Assembly (NCBI GenBank): GCA_023258975.1
Contig: JAHFRD010000001.1
Location: 1 to 64,000, forward strand
Origin: Hydrogenophilales bacterium
GTDB taxonomy: Bacteria > Pseudomonadota > Gammaproteobacteria > Burkholderiales > Thiobacillaceae
Direction of reading: 5' to 3'
Length of the DNA stretch: 64,000 nt
The stretch's first letter is position 1; each line of letters starts with the position of its first letter. Shown here piece by piece: positions 29,541-47,170 of the stretch. The notes under the pieces were generated by a model, which was given only the letters and a program-made list of their open reading frames with translations, did no database searches and was not told the DNA's origin. A program made the translations under genes and the position numbers.

Positions 29541-29598
29541 CTGTAAGCCGACATCCCTCCGGCCACTGAAAAAACGCCGGCTGGAAGCCGGCGCTACA
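29541..29598 (-). repeat. Composite palindromic repeat, copy A, acting as ppsA terminator
   Basis: The right half (29575-29598) is cgccggctggaagccggcgc followed by taca, sharing the terminal motif GCCGGCGCTACA with the other copies. The left half is degenerate. Read on the minus strand, a CGCCGGCT/AGCCGGCG stem with a 3-base loop is followed by TTTTTT. It lies about 70 bp beyond the ppsA stop, so it forms a convincing intrinsic terminator for that gene. Confidence 0.8.
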
Positions 29599-40760: not shown

Positions 40761-40855
40761 TGTAGCGCCGGCTTGATGAGGCCCCTACCCTTCGGTATCC
40801 AGCCGGCTCGTTTATCGGATCAGAAGCACGAAGCCGGCGACTCGCCGGCGCTACA
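40761..40855. repeat. Composite palindromic element, copy B (95 bp, 12-bp terminal inverted repeats)
   Basis: Begins TGTAGCGCCGGC (40761-40772) and ends with its exact complement GCCGGCGCTACA (40844-40855). Internal smaller palindromes include gccggcgactcgccggc. It fills the whole gap between the HEAGH gene start and the hypD stop. The hypD stop codon begins at the very next base. Confidence 0.88.
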
Positions 40856-42289: not shown

Positions 42290-44647
42290 TCAGCGGCTCC
42301 GCGACATTGCAACCCAAGCCTGGCCCAGGCTCAAGCCCCCATCGTTGGGCGGCGCCTGAAGCGCGGCCAGGACGGTGAACCCGCGCGCGGCCAGGTGGCC
42401 GCTCAGTTCGCGGGAAAGGAGGTGATTCAGGAAACAGCCGCCACCCAGTGCAACCGTGCTCAGACCCTCGCGCTGGGCCGCACGTTCCAGCCAGTCCGCC
42501 AGGGCATGGGCCAGGGTGGCGTGAAATAAAGCGGCGCCGCGGGCTGGATTCTTCGCGTCGGCGAGGCGGGCCAGCAGGGGTAGCAAGTCGAGGCGGCCGT
42601 CGTCGTGAAGGACATGGCCGCCGCGCATGGGCGCAACCGAGCCATGTTGCTCTGCCAGGCCCTCCAGCAACATCGCCGCCTGCCCCTCGTAGGCCATGAC
42701 CGCGCGCGCGCCGAGCAATCCCGCCGCTGCGTCGAAGCAGCGGCCGAGGCTGCTTGTTTGTGGGCAGTTCAAGTCGCGCTCCAGCAATGGATGCAGTTGC
42801 GCCGCCGCCGGCTGGTCGAAAAAGCGGCGGGCGATTTCATCGCCGCGCCCCAGCCGGTGCAGCACCGCCGCCGCCATGCGCCAGGGCTGGCTGGCGGCCT
42901 TGTCGCCGCCGGGCAGCGGGAGGGGCGTGAGATGGCCCAAGCGGCTGAAATCGGCGTCCTCCACGCGCAGCAACTCGCCGCCCCAGGCGCCGCCGTCACT
43001 ACCCAGGCCCACCCCATCCAGCGCCAGGCCGAGGATGGGGCCGGTAACACCGTGTTCCGCCGCGATTGCCGCGATATGGGCATGGTGATGCTGCACGGCG
43101 AAGGCTGGCACGCCCCAGCGCCCGGCGAGTTCCAGTGCGTGGCGGCTGGCGAAGAAATCCGGGTGCAAGTCGTGGGCCACGGCTTGCGGCCGGACTTGCA
43201 GGATGTCGAGCAGATGTCCAGCCACCTCGATCAACATGGCGCAGGTCGCCGGGTTGTCGAGACCGCCGATGTGCTGGGAAACGAAAGCCTCGTCGCCTCG
43301 CGTGACGCAGATTGTGTTTTTCAGATGGCCGCCCAGGGCCAGCACCGAAGGGCCGGAACGCGGCAGGCGGATGGCGCGCGGGGTGTAACCACGGGCGCGG
43401 CGGATGAACTGGGGGGTATCGCCCAGACACCGCACCACCGAATCATCACAACGCGCCACGATGTCCCGGTCATGCAGCAACACCGCGTCGGCGATGCCGG
43501 CCAGACGCGCCAGCGCCTCGTCATTGCCAATGACCAAAGGCTCACCGCCGGGGTTGGCGCTGGTCATCACCAGCACCAGGGCTTGCGGCGCGTCCATCCA
43601 CGCGCTGCCGGTGGGTTGGCCGGCGGCTTCATGGAACAGCAGCCAGTGGATCGGCGTATAGGGCAGCATCACCCCCAGCCAGGCCAGACCGGGAGCGATG
43701 CCGGGGAAAGCGGCGTCACAGCCGGGCTTCTTGCGCAGCAGGACAATGGGCCGCTCCGGGGATTGCAGCAGTTCGGCCTCTTCCTCATTCACTTCCACCC
43801 AGTCGGCGATGGAGGCCAGATTGGCGGCCATCACCGCGAAGGGCTTTTCCTCGCGATTCTTGCGCTCACGCAGGCAACGCACGGCTTCCGGGTCGCGCGC
43901 GTCGCAGGCCAGGTGGAAACCGCCGAGGCCCTTGAGGGCGACGATGCGGCCGGATTGGAGGTGATTGAGGGTCTCGGCGATGGGGTCTTGTTGTAGCGCC
44001 GGCATCCCTGCCGGCGTCTTTTCAAACATCCGGCCGGCCCTAGAGGATACCGTCCCTTCGGGACATAAAGCCGGCGCTACAAGAAACGCCAGCTTCGGCC
44101 CGCACACCGGGCAAGCCGTCGGCTCCGCATGAAAACGCCGGTTGCCCGGATCGCGGTATTCCCGCTCGCACTCCGGGCACAGCGGGAAGGCCGCCATGCT
44201 GGTTTGCGCGCGGTCGTAGGGCAGGCGCCGGGTCAGGGTGTAGCGCGGGCCGCAGTGGGTGCAATTGATGAAGGCGTGGCGCCAACGCCGGTCGGCGGGG
44301 TCGAACAATTCCGCCAGGCAGTCGGGACAGGTGGCGGTGTCCGGGCCGATCAGGGTGGCGGCCTGGCCGGCACCGCTTTCGCCGATGCTGAATTCGGCGA
44401 ACTCACCAGTGGCCGGAGCGTCCGTCCAGGTCAGGTCACGCACCTGGGCGAGCGGCGGCAGTTCCTCCGGCAGGCGCCGGGTGAAAGCCTCGATGGCCGC
44501 CTCGACGCCTTCCAACAGCACTTCCACCCCGGCGGCATCGTTGCGCACCCAGCCGGTGAGATTCAATTCATTCGCCAGATGCCAGACCGTGGGGCGGAAA
44601 CCGACCCCCTGGACGATGCCGGTGACGCGGAGGCAGCGTTGCATCAC
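42290..44647 (-). CDS. hypF: Carbamoyltransferase HypF, with an in-frame repeat insertion
   Basis: A 785-residue enzyme that makes the cyanide precursor from carbamoyl phosphate and passes it to HypE. Domains in order: acylphosphatase (GIVQGVGFRPTVWHLANELN), zinc fingers (CPDCLAELFDP, CTHCGPRYTL, CPECEREYRD, CPVCGPKLAF), YrdC-like (GRIVALKGLGGFHLACDARD) and the Kae1-like C-terminal domain with VQHHHAHIAAIAAEHG. Between the last zinc finger and the YrdC domain, 30 extra residues (VAPALCPEGTVSS...GMPAL) are encoded exactly by a 90-bp palindromic element. This lies in an interdomain linker, so function may be retained. It follows hypB by 22 bp. Confidence 0.95.
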   Translation of the reverse strand: MMQRCLRVTGIVQGVGFRPTVWHLANELNLTGWVRNDAAGVEVLLEGVEAAIEAFTRRLPEELPPLAQVRDLTWTDAPATGEFAEFSIGESGAGQAATLIGPDTATCPDCLAELFDPADRRWRHAFINCTHCGPRYTLTRRLPYDRAQTSMAAFPLCPECEREYRDPGNRRFHAEPTACPVCGPKLAFLVAPALCPEGTVSSRAGRMFEKTPAGMPALQQDPIAETLNHLQSGRIVALKGLGGFHLACDARDPEAVRCLRERKNREEKPFAVMAANLASIADWVEVNEEEAELLQSPERPIVLLRKKPGCDAAFPGIAPGLAWLGVMLPYTPIHWLLFHEAAGQPTGSAWMDAPQALVLVMTSANPGGEPLVIGNDEALARLAGIADAVLLHDRDIVARCDDSVVRCLGDTPQFIRRARGYTPRAIRLPRSGPSVLALGGHLKNTICVTRGDEAFVSQHIGGLDNPATCAMLIEVAGHLLDILQVRPQAVAHDLHPDFFASRHALELAGRWGVPAFAVQHHHAHIAAIAAEHGVTGPILGLALDGVGLGSDGGAWGGELLRVEDADFSRLGHLTPLPLPGGDKAASQPWRMAAAVLHRLGRGDEIARRFFDQPAAAQLHPLLERDLNCPQTSSLGRCFDAAAGLLGARAVMAYEGQAAMLLEGLAEQHGSVAPMRGGHVLHDDGRLDLLPLLARLADAKNPARGAALFHATLAHALADWLERAAQREGLSTVALGGGCFLNHLLSRELSGHLAARGFTVLAALQAPPNDGGLSLGQAWVAMSRSR
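43992..44081. repeat. Composite palindromic element, copy C, in frame within hypF (90 bp)
   Basis: It has the same perfect 12-bp ends as copy B: TGTAGCGCCGGC at 43992-44003 and GCCGGCGCTACA at 44070-44081. Internally it has gccggcatccctgccggc and ccgtcccttcgggac palindromes. Its length of 90 bp equals 30 codons and no stop arises in the hypF frame. The arm with the terminator-like T-rich flank (gtcttttc) faces the antisense strand, so it would not terminate hypF transcription. Confidence 0.9.
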
Positions 44648-46060: not shown

Positions 46061-47170
46061 TCATCTCGCTTCACTTACCTCGATTCCAAAGGCGACGCAG
46101 GGATCCAGTGACTGGGCGACCAGCCGGGCGCGGGCGTCCAGTCCATCTCCCGGCGCGAGGCCGGCCAGGGCCTGGCACAGGGGGCCGGCGGGATGGAAAT
46201 TCCATTCGGTGGGGGCGACGATGCGGTACTGCTCCACCTTGCCCTCCCGCAGGCGCGCCACGTGAAACAGCAGGCCACGCGCGGTTTCCACGCCGGCCAG
46301 GCCGGTATTGTTGCTGAGGGGCCAGGCACGAACCCATATGGAGCCGGCAAGGATGCCGGCGCTACATTCGGCCAGTCGCGCGGGCAGTTCCGTCAGTTCC
46401 AGCAAACGCGCCAGCAGACGCGCGCCGGCGCCGCAGCCGCGTTGCGCGATCCAGGCGGCGAGCAGCGGTTGTTCGCGCATGCGGGCGAGCGCGCCGGTCT
46501 CGGCGGGCGCGCCGCGCCACAGCGGTTGGCCGCAGAACGCCGGCTCATCGAGCGCCCGCCGCGCGAGTTCATGGGCTTCCGCGTCTTCCAGGATGGCCAG
46601 CGGCGGCAACGGGCCGGCCTGGCTGATGCCGATATCCGCGCCCTCCCCCAGCCCGGCGAACAGGCGCGCGGTCGCGGTGGCGCCCGCATGGCGCCAGGCA
46701 TCGAATCCGGCGAGGCCGCGCGCCAGCCAGACGTCGGCCGCCTCGCCCAGCAGGGTGGTTCGCAATAACTCGTCGAGCGTCTCCAGAAAGTGCGTGGGAT
46801 CGGCGGCGCTCTGGCGCAGCCGCGACTGGCCGGCCTGGTCGGGCGGCATGCCCTGTTGTTGCGGCCAGTCGAGCAGGAAGCGCCAGGCATGTTCCTGGGC
46901 CAGTTCCAGCAACACGGCGGTTTCGCGCGCCCGGCTCACGGCGGCGGCAGGCATCACACCCGACGCCGCTTCACAGGCGGCCTTGGCGGCGACTCGTTGC
47001 GCCTTGCCGCACAGGCTGAAAATCAGTCCGGCCAGATGCGCGGCTTCCTCGGGCGCCCGCCCGCCCAGGAGCTTCTGTGCCAGTTGTGGCCGCGAGGACT
47101 GGATGGCCACCGTGGCCGGCGCGACGCCGCGCGTTTTCAGTTGAATGTCGATCCGGCCTTCGAGGTTCAT
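46061..47170 (-). CDS. HoxV/HupK-like hydrogenase assembly protein
   Basis: A 369-residue protein whose C-terminal half resembles the NiFe hydrogenase large subunit without its catalytic cysteine pairs: ETARGLLFHVARLREGKVEQ, APTEWNFHPAGPLCQAL and QSLDPCVAFGIEV. HoxV/HupK proteins are proposed scaffolds for the Fe(CN)2CO group. ATG 47170 gives MNLEGRIDIQLKTRGVAPAT. Near residue 275 a 24-bp half copy of the palindromic element encodes CSAGILAG in frame. The gene sits between hypX and hypA, 55 bp after the former. Confidence 0.72.
   Translation of the reverse strand: MNLEGRIDIQLKTRGVAPATVAIQSSRPQLAQKLLGGRAPEEAAHLAGLIFSLCGKAQRVAAKAACEAASGVMPAAAVSRARETAVLLELAQEHAWRFLLDWPQQQGMPPDQAGQSRLRQSAADPTHFLETLDELLRTTLLGEAADVWLARGLAGFDAWRHAGATATARLFAGLGEGADIGISQAGPLPPLAILEDAEAHELARRALDEPAFCGQPLWRGAPAETGALARMREQPLLAAWIAQRGCGAGARLLARLLELTELPARLAECSAGILAGSIWVRAWPLSNNTGLAGVETARGLLFHVARLREGKVEQYRIVAPTEWNFHPAGPLCQALAGLAPGDGLDARARLVAQSLDPCVAFGIEVSEAR
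46344..46367. repeat. Palindromic element, half copy D, in frame within the hupK-like gene (24 bp)
   Basis: Sequence gccggcaaggatgccggcgc followed by taca matches one arm of copy C with one mismatch and carries the terminal GCCGGCGCTACA. Its 24 bp equals eight codons, and it lies in an open coding frame. Confidence 0.8.

Follow-up and report, generated by a model that had tools for sequence, protein, structure and literature searches.

Does a 90-bp palindromic element that is read in frame within a hydrogenase maturation gene belong to a class of repeats built for translation, or is it ordinary mobile DNA that settled in a tolerant part of the protein? The hypF gene of this Hydrogenophilales genome raises the question, and we addressed it in the window (the whole 64,000-nucleotide stretch of DNA analysed), in the rest of the genome and in the HypF proteins of relatives. 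The features concerned are as follows.

42290..44647, minus strand: hypF, 785 aa, a [NiFe]-hydrogenase maturation protein by its open frame and domain matches
43992..44081, minus strand: in-frame GTAG-REP pair (BIME) with the GTAG ends outward, HypF residues ~189-219
43993..44016, plus strand: short REP of that pair, GTAG-CGCCGGC-ATCCCT-GCCGGCG
44030..44080, minus strand: long-subtype REP arm of the hypF pair
44038..44067, minus strand: 30-nt module within the long arm
40761..40855, no strand assigned: intergenic REP pair that separates the hypD ORF from a 173-aa ORF; its 12-bp ends are those of the hypF pair
29577..29598, minus strand: single REP of the GTAG family
46344..46365, minus strand: a further in-frame REP, the second in the window, lying within a hupK-like gene (about 46061-47170, minus strand)

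The observation of an in-frame palindromic element in hypF, made in a preliminary description of this DNA, is confirmed. The ends of the element, TGTAGCGCCGGC, are exact at 43992-44003 (plus strand) and 44070-44081 (minus strand), and those of the intergenic copy at 40761-40855 are identical, so that the perfect 12-bp inverted ends reported for both copies are indeed shared. The hypF frame stays open across the element without a stop. The window protein has the full set of HypF domains (Acylphosphatase, two zf-HYPF, YrdC and Kae1-like), and by coordinates the element codons, ~189-219, lie between zf-HYPF (residues 156-188) and Sua5/YrdC (residues 230-418), that is, in the zinc finger–YrdC linker, as had been proposed. 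Two further points were borne out in part. The 90 bp are in frame, but the net gain is ~21 residues rather than exactly 30 codons, the linker measuring 47 residues compared with 25-26 in most of the HypFs read. The terminator-like arm described as antisense does consist of a plus-strand hairpin with TCTTTTC after it, antisense to hypF, but the scan called neither a terminator nor a promoter within the element. A betaproteobacterial host, also suggested there, fits relatives such as Hydrogenophilales and Thiobacillus.

The genome-wide search for the 12-bp ends that had been proposed beforehand returned many more copies. The exact motif occurs 243 times (118 + 125) in the 3.63-Mb genome compared with three times (1 + 2) for the reversed control, and six of the copies are in the 64-kb window. 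When up to two mismatches are allowed, the window contains 30 matches compared with a shuffle mean of 12.4, and none of 100 shuffles reaches 30. The pattern GTAGCGCCGGCW-loop-GCCGG is found at 96 places in the genome and at one in the reversed control. The common form of the REP is GTAGCGCCGGC, a loop of ~5-6 nt and GCCGG; a long subtype also exists. The places are dispersed over many contigs, from C1 to C37. We grouped copies into 119 clusters, drawn from 30 exact-end loci, 80 stretches and the window, with any additional copies that these contained; the 80 stretches were built from the first 100 exact-end places listed and the 96 GTAGCGCCGGCW-loop-GCCGG places, with an 81st stretch left out. 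By the seed used, 48 clusters are pairs with GTAG outward, three are reverse pairs, 66 are single and two are triple. The GTAG end, the high and dispersed copy number, the outward pairs and a REP-flanked transposase gene are all features of the GTAG REP/BIME superfamily, and the hypF element is a member of this family.

The genome has four PF01797 (Y1_Tnp) genes, one of which (C14:51298-51534) has REPs on both sides; no flanking REPs were found in the ~3.3-kb loci of the other three. This flanking position suggests that REPs of the hypF type are probably moved by the REP-associated Y1 transposase (RAYT). Neither a target-site duplication nor movement of the element was seen. At the same C14 locus (L147:715-2130, minus strand), the frame of the REP-flanked RAYT continues across a REP pair into an ORF that resembles a uracil-DNA glycosylase (named by eye), giving a single open frame of 472 codons.

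In-frame copies are not confined to hypF. Nine of the 119 clusters lie in frame within ORFs that have coding-like flanks on both sides, and seven of the nine are insertion-like. The genes concerned encode HypF, a HupK-like protein, SMC, the copper ATPase CopA, a DNA methylase, a GGDEF protein, glycerate kinase, the RAYT/uracil-DNA-glycosylase junction and a NarX-like kinase. Thirteen ORFs had passed the score, and four of these (L121, L187, L146 and L166) were dropped as a matter of judgement, being probably ORFs on the wrong strand. As insertion cases, the NarX-like kinase (C1:23148) was set aside as, in our judgement, probably a chance match, and the C14 ORF because it is the RAYT/uracil-DNA-glycosylase junction. 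A match to the insert peptide in C33 was also rejected as occurring in another protein of the genome, since the open frame has only just begun where it sits and the upstream flank does not look coding. Among the insertion-like calls, CopA was set against a solved structure only and the GGDEF protein against G282 only by eye.

Comparison with relatives supports insertion in HupK, in glycerate kinase and, by eye, in SMC. The hupK copy in the window is half a pair. Among nine compared loci, the same site has a full pair in L035 (G270) and L036 (G274) and possible remnants in L114 and L047; no REP is evident there in L037, L038, L039, L044 and L046. The glycerate kinase gene (L030:1029-2342) contains a triple in-frame REP of 136 bp. 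Its residues ~134-188 are absent in relatives, which match both halves with flanks that overlap or lie 0-15 nt apart, and G270 has an apparent single REP at the same place. Beyond residue ~385 the frame no longer matches relatives, and the gene may therefore be broken or misassembled. In SMC (L117), the region 430-490 is hypervariable, and REP-like peptides of differing length can be seen by eye in several relatives. Related peptides (VAPAS.., CSAGILAG.. and ..AGAT) recur across the in-frame cases in unrelated genes. In L138, the open frame of the DNA methylase contains both a GTAG-REP pair and a stretch of PLPPAGEGPGVR, which looks like another repeat family.

To place the hypF element, we compared the zinc finger–YrdC linker (linker A) between HypF proteins. 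It could be read in 79 of them, namely 78 of the 80 fetched loci (the linker motif failed to match in L083 and L113) and the window; nor did it match in five of 30 loci of a further set. Linker A has 25-26 residues in 56 of the 79 proteins. In 13 others it has 13-31, and in the remaining ten, nine of which bear recognizable palindromic repeats, it has 39-65. The ten long linkers contain GTAG-CGCCGGC REPs (three), GTAG-CGCAGGC REPs (two), CTCTCCC/GGGAGAGGG repeats (two), CCCCCTTT/AAAGGGGGG repeats, here termed C5T3 (two), and an uncharacterized insert (one, L043). As the preliminary description had anticipated, the residues of the insert are absent from most of the 79 proteins, and in relatives within the genus the linker is either short or filled in another way.

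The genus search covered 23 genomes, of which 21 gave a match and 19 gave HypF orthologues. G273 and G267 (only a ~45% paralogue) and G272 and G284 (no match) were excluded, and G280, cut by contig ends, was counted for sites A and B only. Most of the relatives are draft genomes or metagenome bins. Site labels are motif patterns chosen after inspection of the sequences; the second labels at site C of G281 and at site B of G275 did not enter the counts. At site A, the zinc finger–YrdC linker, 12 of the 19 orthologues have labelled repeats from four families: GTAG-CGCCGGC in three, GTAG-CGCAGGC in two, C5T3 in three and CTCTCCC in four. The other seven linkers measure 10-28 residues, and that of G182 is shortened. 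Site B, the turn after YrdC (~409-413), has labelled repeats of at least two families in seven of the 19, and longer segments of 21-32 residues without a label in G276, G182 and G103 were left uncounted. Site C (~670-685) is labelled in two of the 19, and at site D (~624-630) short, unlabelled REP-half-like pieces occur in G274, G182 and G275. A large addition is seen at site B of G275 (L260), which holds four to five tandem in-frame copies of a CCCCCTTT-type pair and measures 200 residues, compared with 11-13 in species without repeats there. In the same gene, the C-terminal match sits in another frame. The HypF of G281 is 154 residues longer than that of the window. At site C in the hypF genes of L257 and L258, the Kae1-like domain contains VIPAxAGIQ...WTPxxxGVT peptides, which we take to be typical of yet another palindromic repeat.

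Length differences at the same locus are 0 for HypA (19 of 19) and HypC (25 of 25) and -9 to 0 for HypD (23 loci), compared with -22 to +202 aa for HypF (34, with some genomes counted twice). HypB (-53 to +60 aa, 24 loci) and HupK (-17 to +20, eight loci) also vary. HypF is thus apparently a hotspot for palindromic repeats, as seen from hypF as the starting gene. In the HypF core tree (29 rows), the sisters G276 and G277 (100/98) have different families at site A, and the clade of G282, G283 and G270 (100/98) has two. Each family requires 2-4 changes on the tree, and all labels together require eight, compared with a shuffled mean of 8.5 and a value as low in 101 of 200 shuffles; family labels therefore do not follow relatedness. 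We claim several separate captures at HypF joints without giving a number, because the tree leaves nine of its 26 inner branches open and each label group has few members.

We then compared capture in HypF with the load of the same repeats in each genome, for C5T3 and GTAG across the 19 genomes. Counts were made on both strands, so that palindromes are counted about twice, and include the hypF copies. The seven genomes with C5T3 in HypF have 73-788 copies compared with 0-57 in the 12 without, and are exactly the seven richest in C5T3 (Mann–Whitney 0.0002, or 0.0009 with one clade collapsed; Fisher 2e-5 with the cut chosen afterwards). G266 has 57 copies, none of them in HypF. For GTAG, the five carriers have 70-596 copies and the 14 non-carriers 1-326 (Mann–Whitney 0.004, collapsed 0.018; Fisher 0.011, again with the cut chosen afterwards); the GTAG-rich genomes without GTAG at site A are G282 (326), G182 (216), G275 (82) and G103 (41). 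In a smaller comparison, four GTAG carriers have 70-596 copies compared with 1-6 in four genomes whose linkers have 26-28 residues, yet L038 combines 216 copies with a 13-residue linker. There, the two GGGAGAGGG carriers have 38 and 17 copies compared with 0-4 in five others; for C5T3, the genome of carrier L040 has 23 and that of carrier L099 only 3, while the L047 genome has 22 but another family at site A. Capture in HypF thus tracks the repeat load of its own genome for C5T3, with a looser trend for GTAG.

The AlphaFold2 model of the window HypF, built from 38 HypFs, has a mean pLDDT of 87.7, and the only segment below 50 is residues 194-219, within the insert. Sites B, C and D lie in turns or loops by the secondary structure of the model. 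On the simplest reading of the model, the HypF domains would fold on their own, and the joints between them would tolerate many sorts of added sequence as long as the frame is preserved.

The comparison with relatives also bears on how the 90 bp arose. G270 (L035/L255), of the same genus, has the same junctions as the window copy, with CTT before GTAG and CAAGA after CTACA/CTACAG. Between these junctions it has a shorter pair, and the window copy is longer by 30 nt in one arm, an arm-length comparison made with G270 alone. The 30-nt module, with up to seven edits, is found at 14 places in the stretches examined of this genome, including the one in hypF. The peptide RLFEKTPAxMPALQQD is coded by the HypF of both G270 and G283, and the inserts of the window, G270 and G283 look like one insertion. 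The likeliest course would be one older insertion of ~60 bp followed by a 30-nt in-frame step, either an insertion or a conversion between REP subtypes; the direction from short to long pair is suggested because the short form is common in the genome. The HypF tree requires two changes for the label common to these three genomes. G282 groups with G270 and G283 but bears another family at site A, so that either a replacement in G282 or an exchange between lineages is needed. A ten-residue step of like kind is seen by eye in the GGDEF protein, between the window genome (G000) and G282.

Taken together, we consider it highly probable that mobile palindromes are captured neutrally in the disordered linkers of HypF and filtered for frame. 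The GTAG-REP pair would be a non-autonomous palindrome, probably moved by RAYT, that landed or was copied in the stretch of hypF encoding the disordered joint that connects two domains, each folding independently. An insertion that broke the frame or a fold would be lost, and multiples of three in a floppy loop would be kept and presumably translated as additional linker. Later changes would again keep the frame, as in the 30-nt difference from G270 in hypF and the difference of 13 codons in hupK. The HypF joints would act as sinks that, for the two families tested, tend to hold the family abundant in the genome. Repeated capture predicts labels on the HypF tree that are no more clustered than shuffled ones, which is the pattern obtained.

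The preliminary description had likened the element to the protein-coding palindromes of Rickettsia (RPEs, reviewed in PMC10969869), which would make it an element adapted to translation that spreads via genes. The likeness holds in that a palindromic family with many further copies lies in frame in a protein linker, as RPEs do in unrelated genes (PMC10969869, PMC3733652); the seven insertion-like cases here (HypF, HupK-like, SMC, GGDEF, methylase, CopA and glycerate kinase), with their recurring peptides, speak for it as well. The class does not hold. The hypF family has GTAG ends, unlike the CGTC with which R. conorii RPEs end according to the main text of PMC3733652, and is GTAG REP/BIME. 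No adaptation to coding is apparent either: across 45 pairs there are 3.22 open frames per pair compared with 2.93 in shuffled sequences and 4.32 in random genomic windows, two of the six frames are never open, and only ten of the 45 lengths are multiples of three. Most of the copies examined are not in frame in genes (9/119 clusters are), and at least two sense frames are used. We therefore regard an element built for coding as very unlikely.

The remaining alternatives concern hypF itself. If its DNA offered preferred insertion targets, by sequence or by a hairpin at the fork, targeting rather than tolerance of the protein would account for the presence of four families in the short linker A and of two or more in turn B, recurring in different lineages. 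However, the ends of the families are unrelated and the junction sequences differ, sites A to D are all in loops or turns of the model, and SMC, HupK and glycerate kinase are hit too, which makes targeting improbable, if less so than the other alternatives. Slightly harder to sustain is the idea that longer linkers are adaptive and the repeats only their raw material: large additions are kept open, such as the 200 residues of G275, and 12 of 19 linkers A bear repeats, but lengths and sequences are erratic, seven of 19 linkers have only 10-28 residues with that of G182 shortened, and capture follows repeat load for two families. Least probable of all is that the insert is a sign of gene decay or of faulty assembly. 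Draft bins are common among the relatives, the glycerate kinase frame fails to match after ~385 and the C-terminal match of the G275 HypF is in another frame; the window HypF, on the other hand, has all its domains and a mean pLDDT of 87.7, and the same peptide and the same junctions are found in G270 and G283.

Related repeats have been described before. In the 2013 study by Di Nocera et al. (PMC3733652), the main text of which does not mention Thiobacillus, GTAG and CGTC REPs are reported inside genes of several species, Thauera among them; the intragenic REPs are in the majority dimers or groups coding 20 to 30 residues, flexible linkers are named as possibly neutral insertion sites, and the recB genes of X. 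campestris and X. oryzae have different REPs at about the same site. The GTAG superfamily of that text resembles the hypF element in its GTAG end, short stem-loop and outward pairs 20-100 bp apart, as well as in having some copies in genes coding 20-30 residues and an association with RAYT. Unlike the cases that we found there, ours involves several loops of one protein, several unrelated families across a genus and a match to repeat load. REPIN/RAYT systems, as described in PMC3116915 and PMC2817692, likewise combine paired REPs with a Y1 transposase gene, a link drawn here by flanking position only. The palindromic amphipathic repeat coding sequence of Mollicutes (PMC2996958), likened here by description only, is also a palindromic DNA repeat translated within proteins. 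Among titles and abstracts, in a search with slight coverage of subscription papers, we found no HypF case with palindromic repeats and no multi-family hotspot in HypF. The element itself is thus of a known kind, and the multi-family HypF hotspot was not found in print.

To judge from the main text of PMC3733652, REPs in genes were known before mostly as scattered cases. Nineteen alignable HypFs with several families at the same joints make it possible to test, with replication, how mobile palindromes are turned into protein. They open the questions of which loops accept repeats, how the family relates to load, whether later changes keep to multiples of three, and whether hydrogenase maturation still works with a long HypF of the G281 type. 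For annotation, recurring VAPAS, CSAGILAG or PPLKKGG peptides can be translated repeats and not domains. On balance, and with some reserve, we lean towards the broader view that the HypF linkers of this genus are a general site of in-frame capture, where unrelated families, each in the genomes in which it is abundant, repeatedly move into the same joints and displace each other; HypF would then be a readable recorder of repeat activity and a natural experiment in making linkers from mobile DNA.
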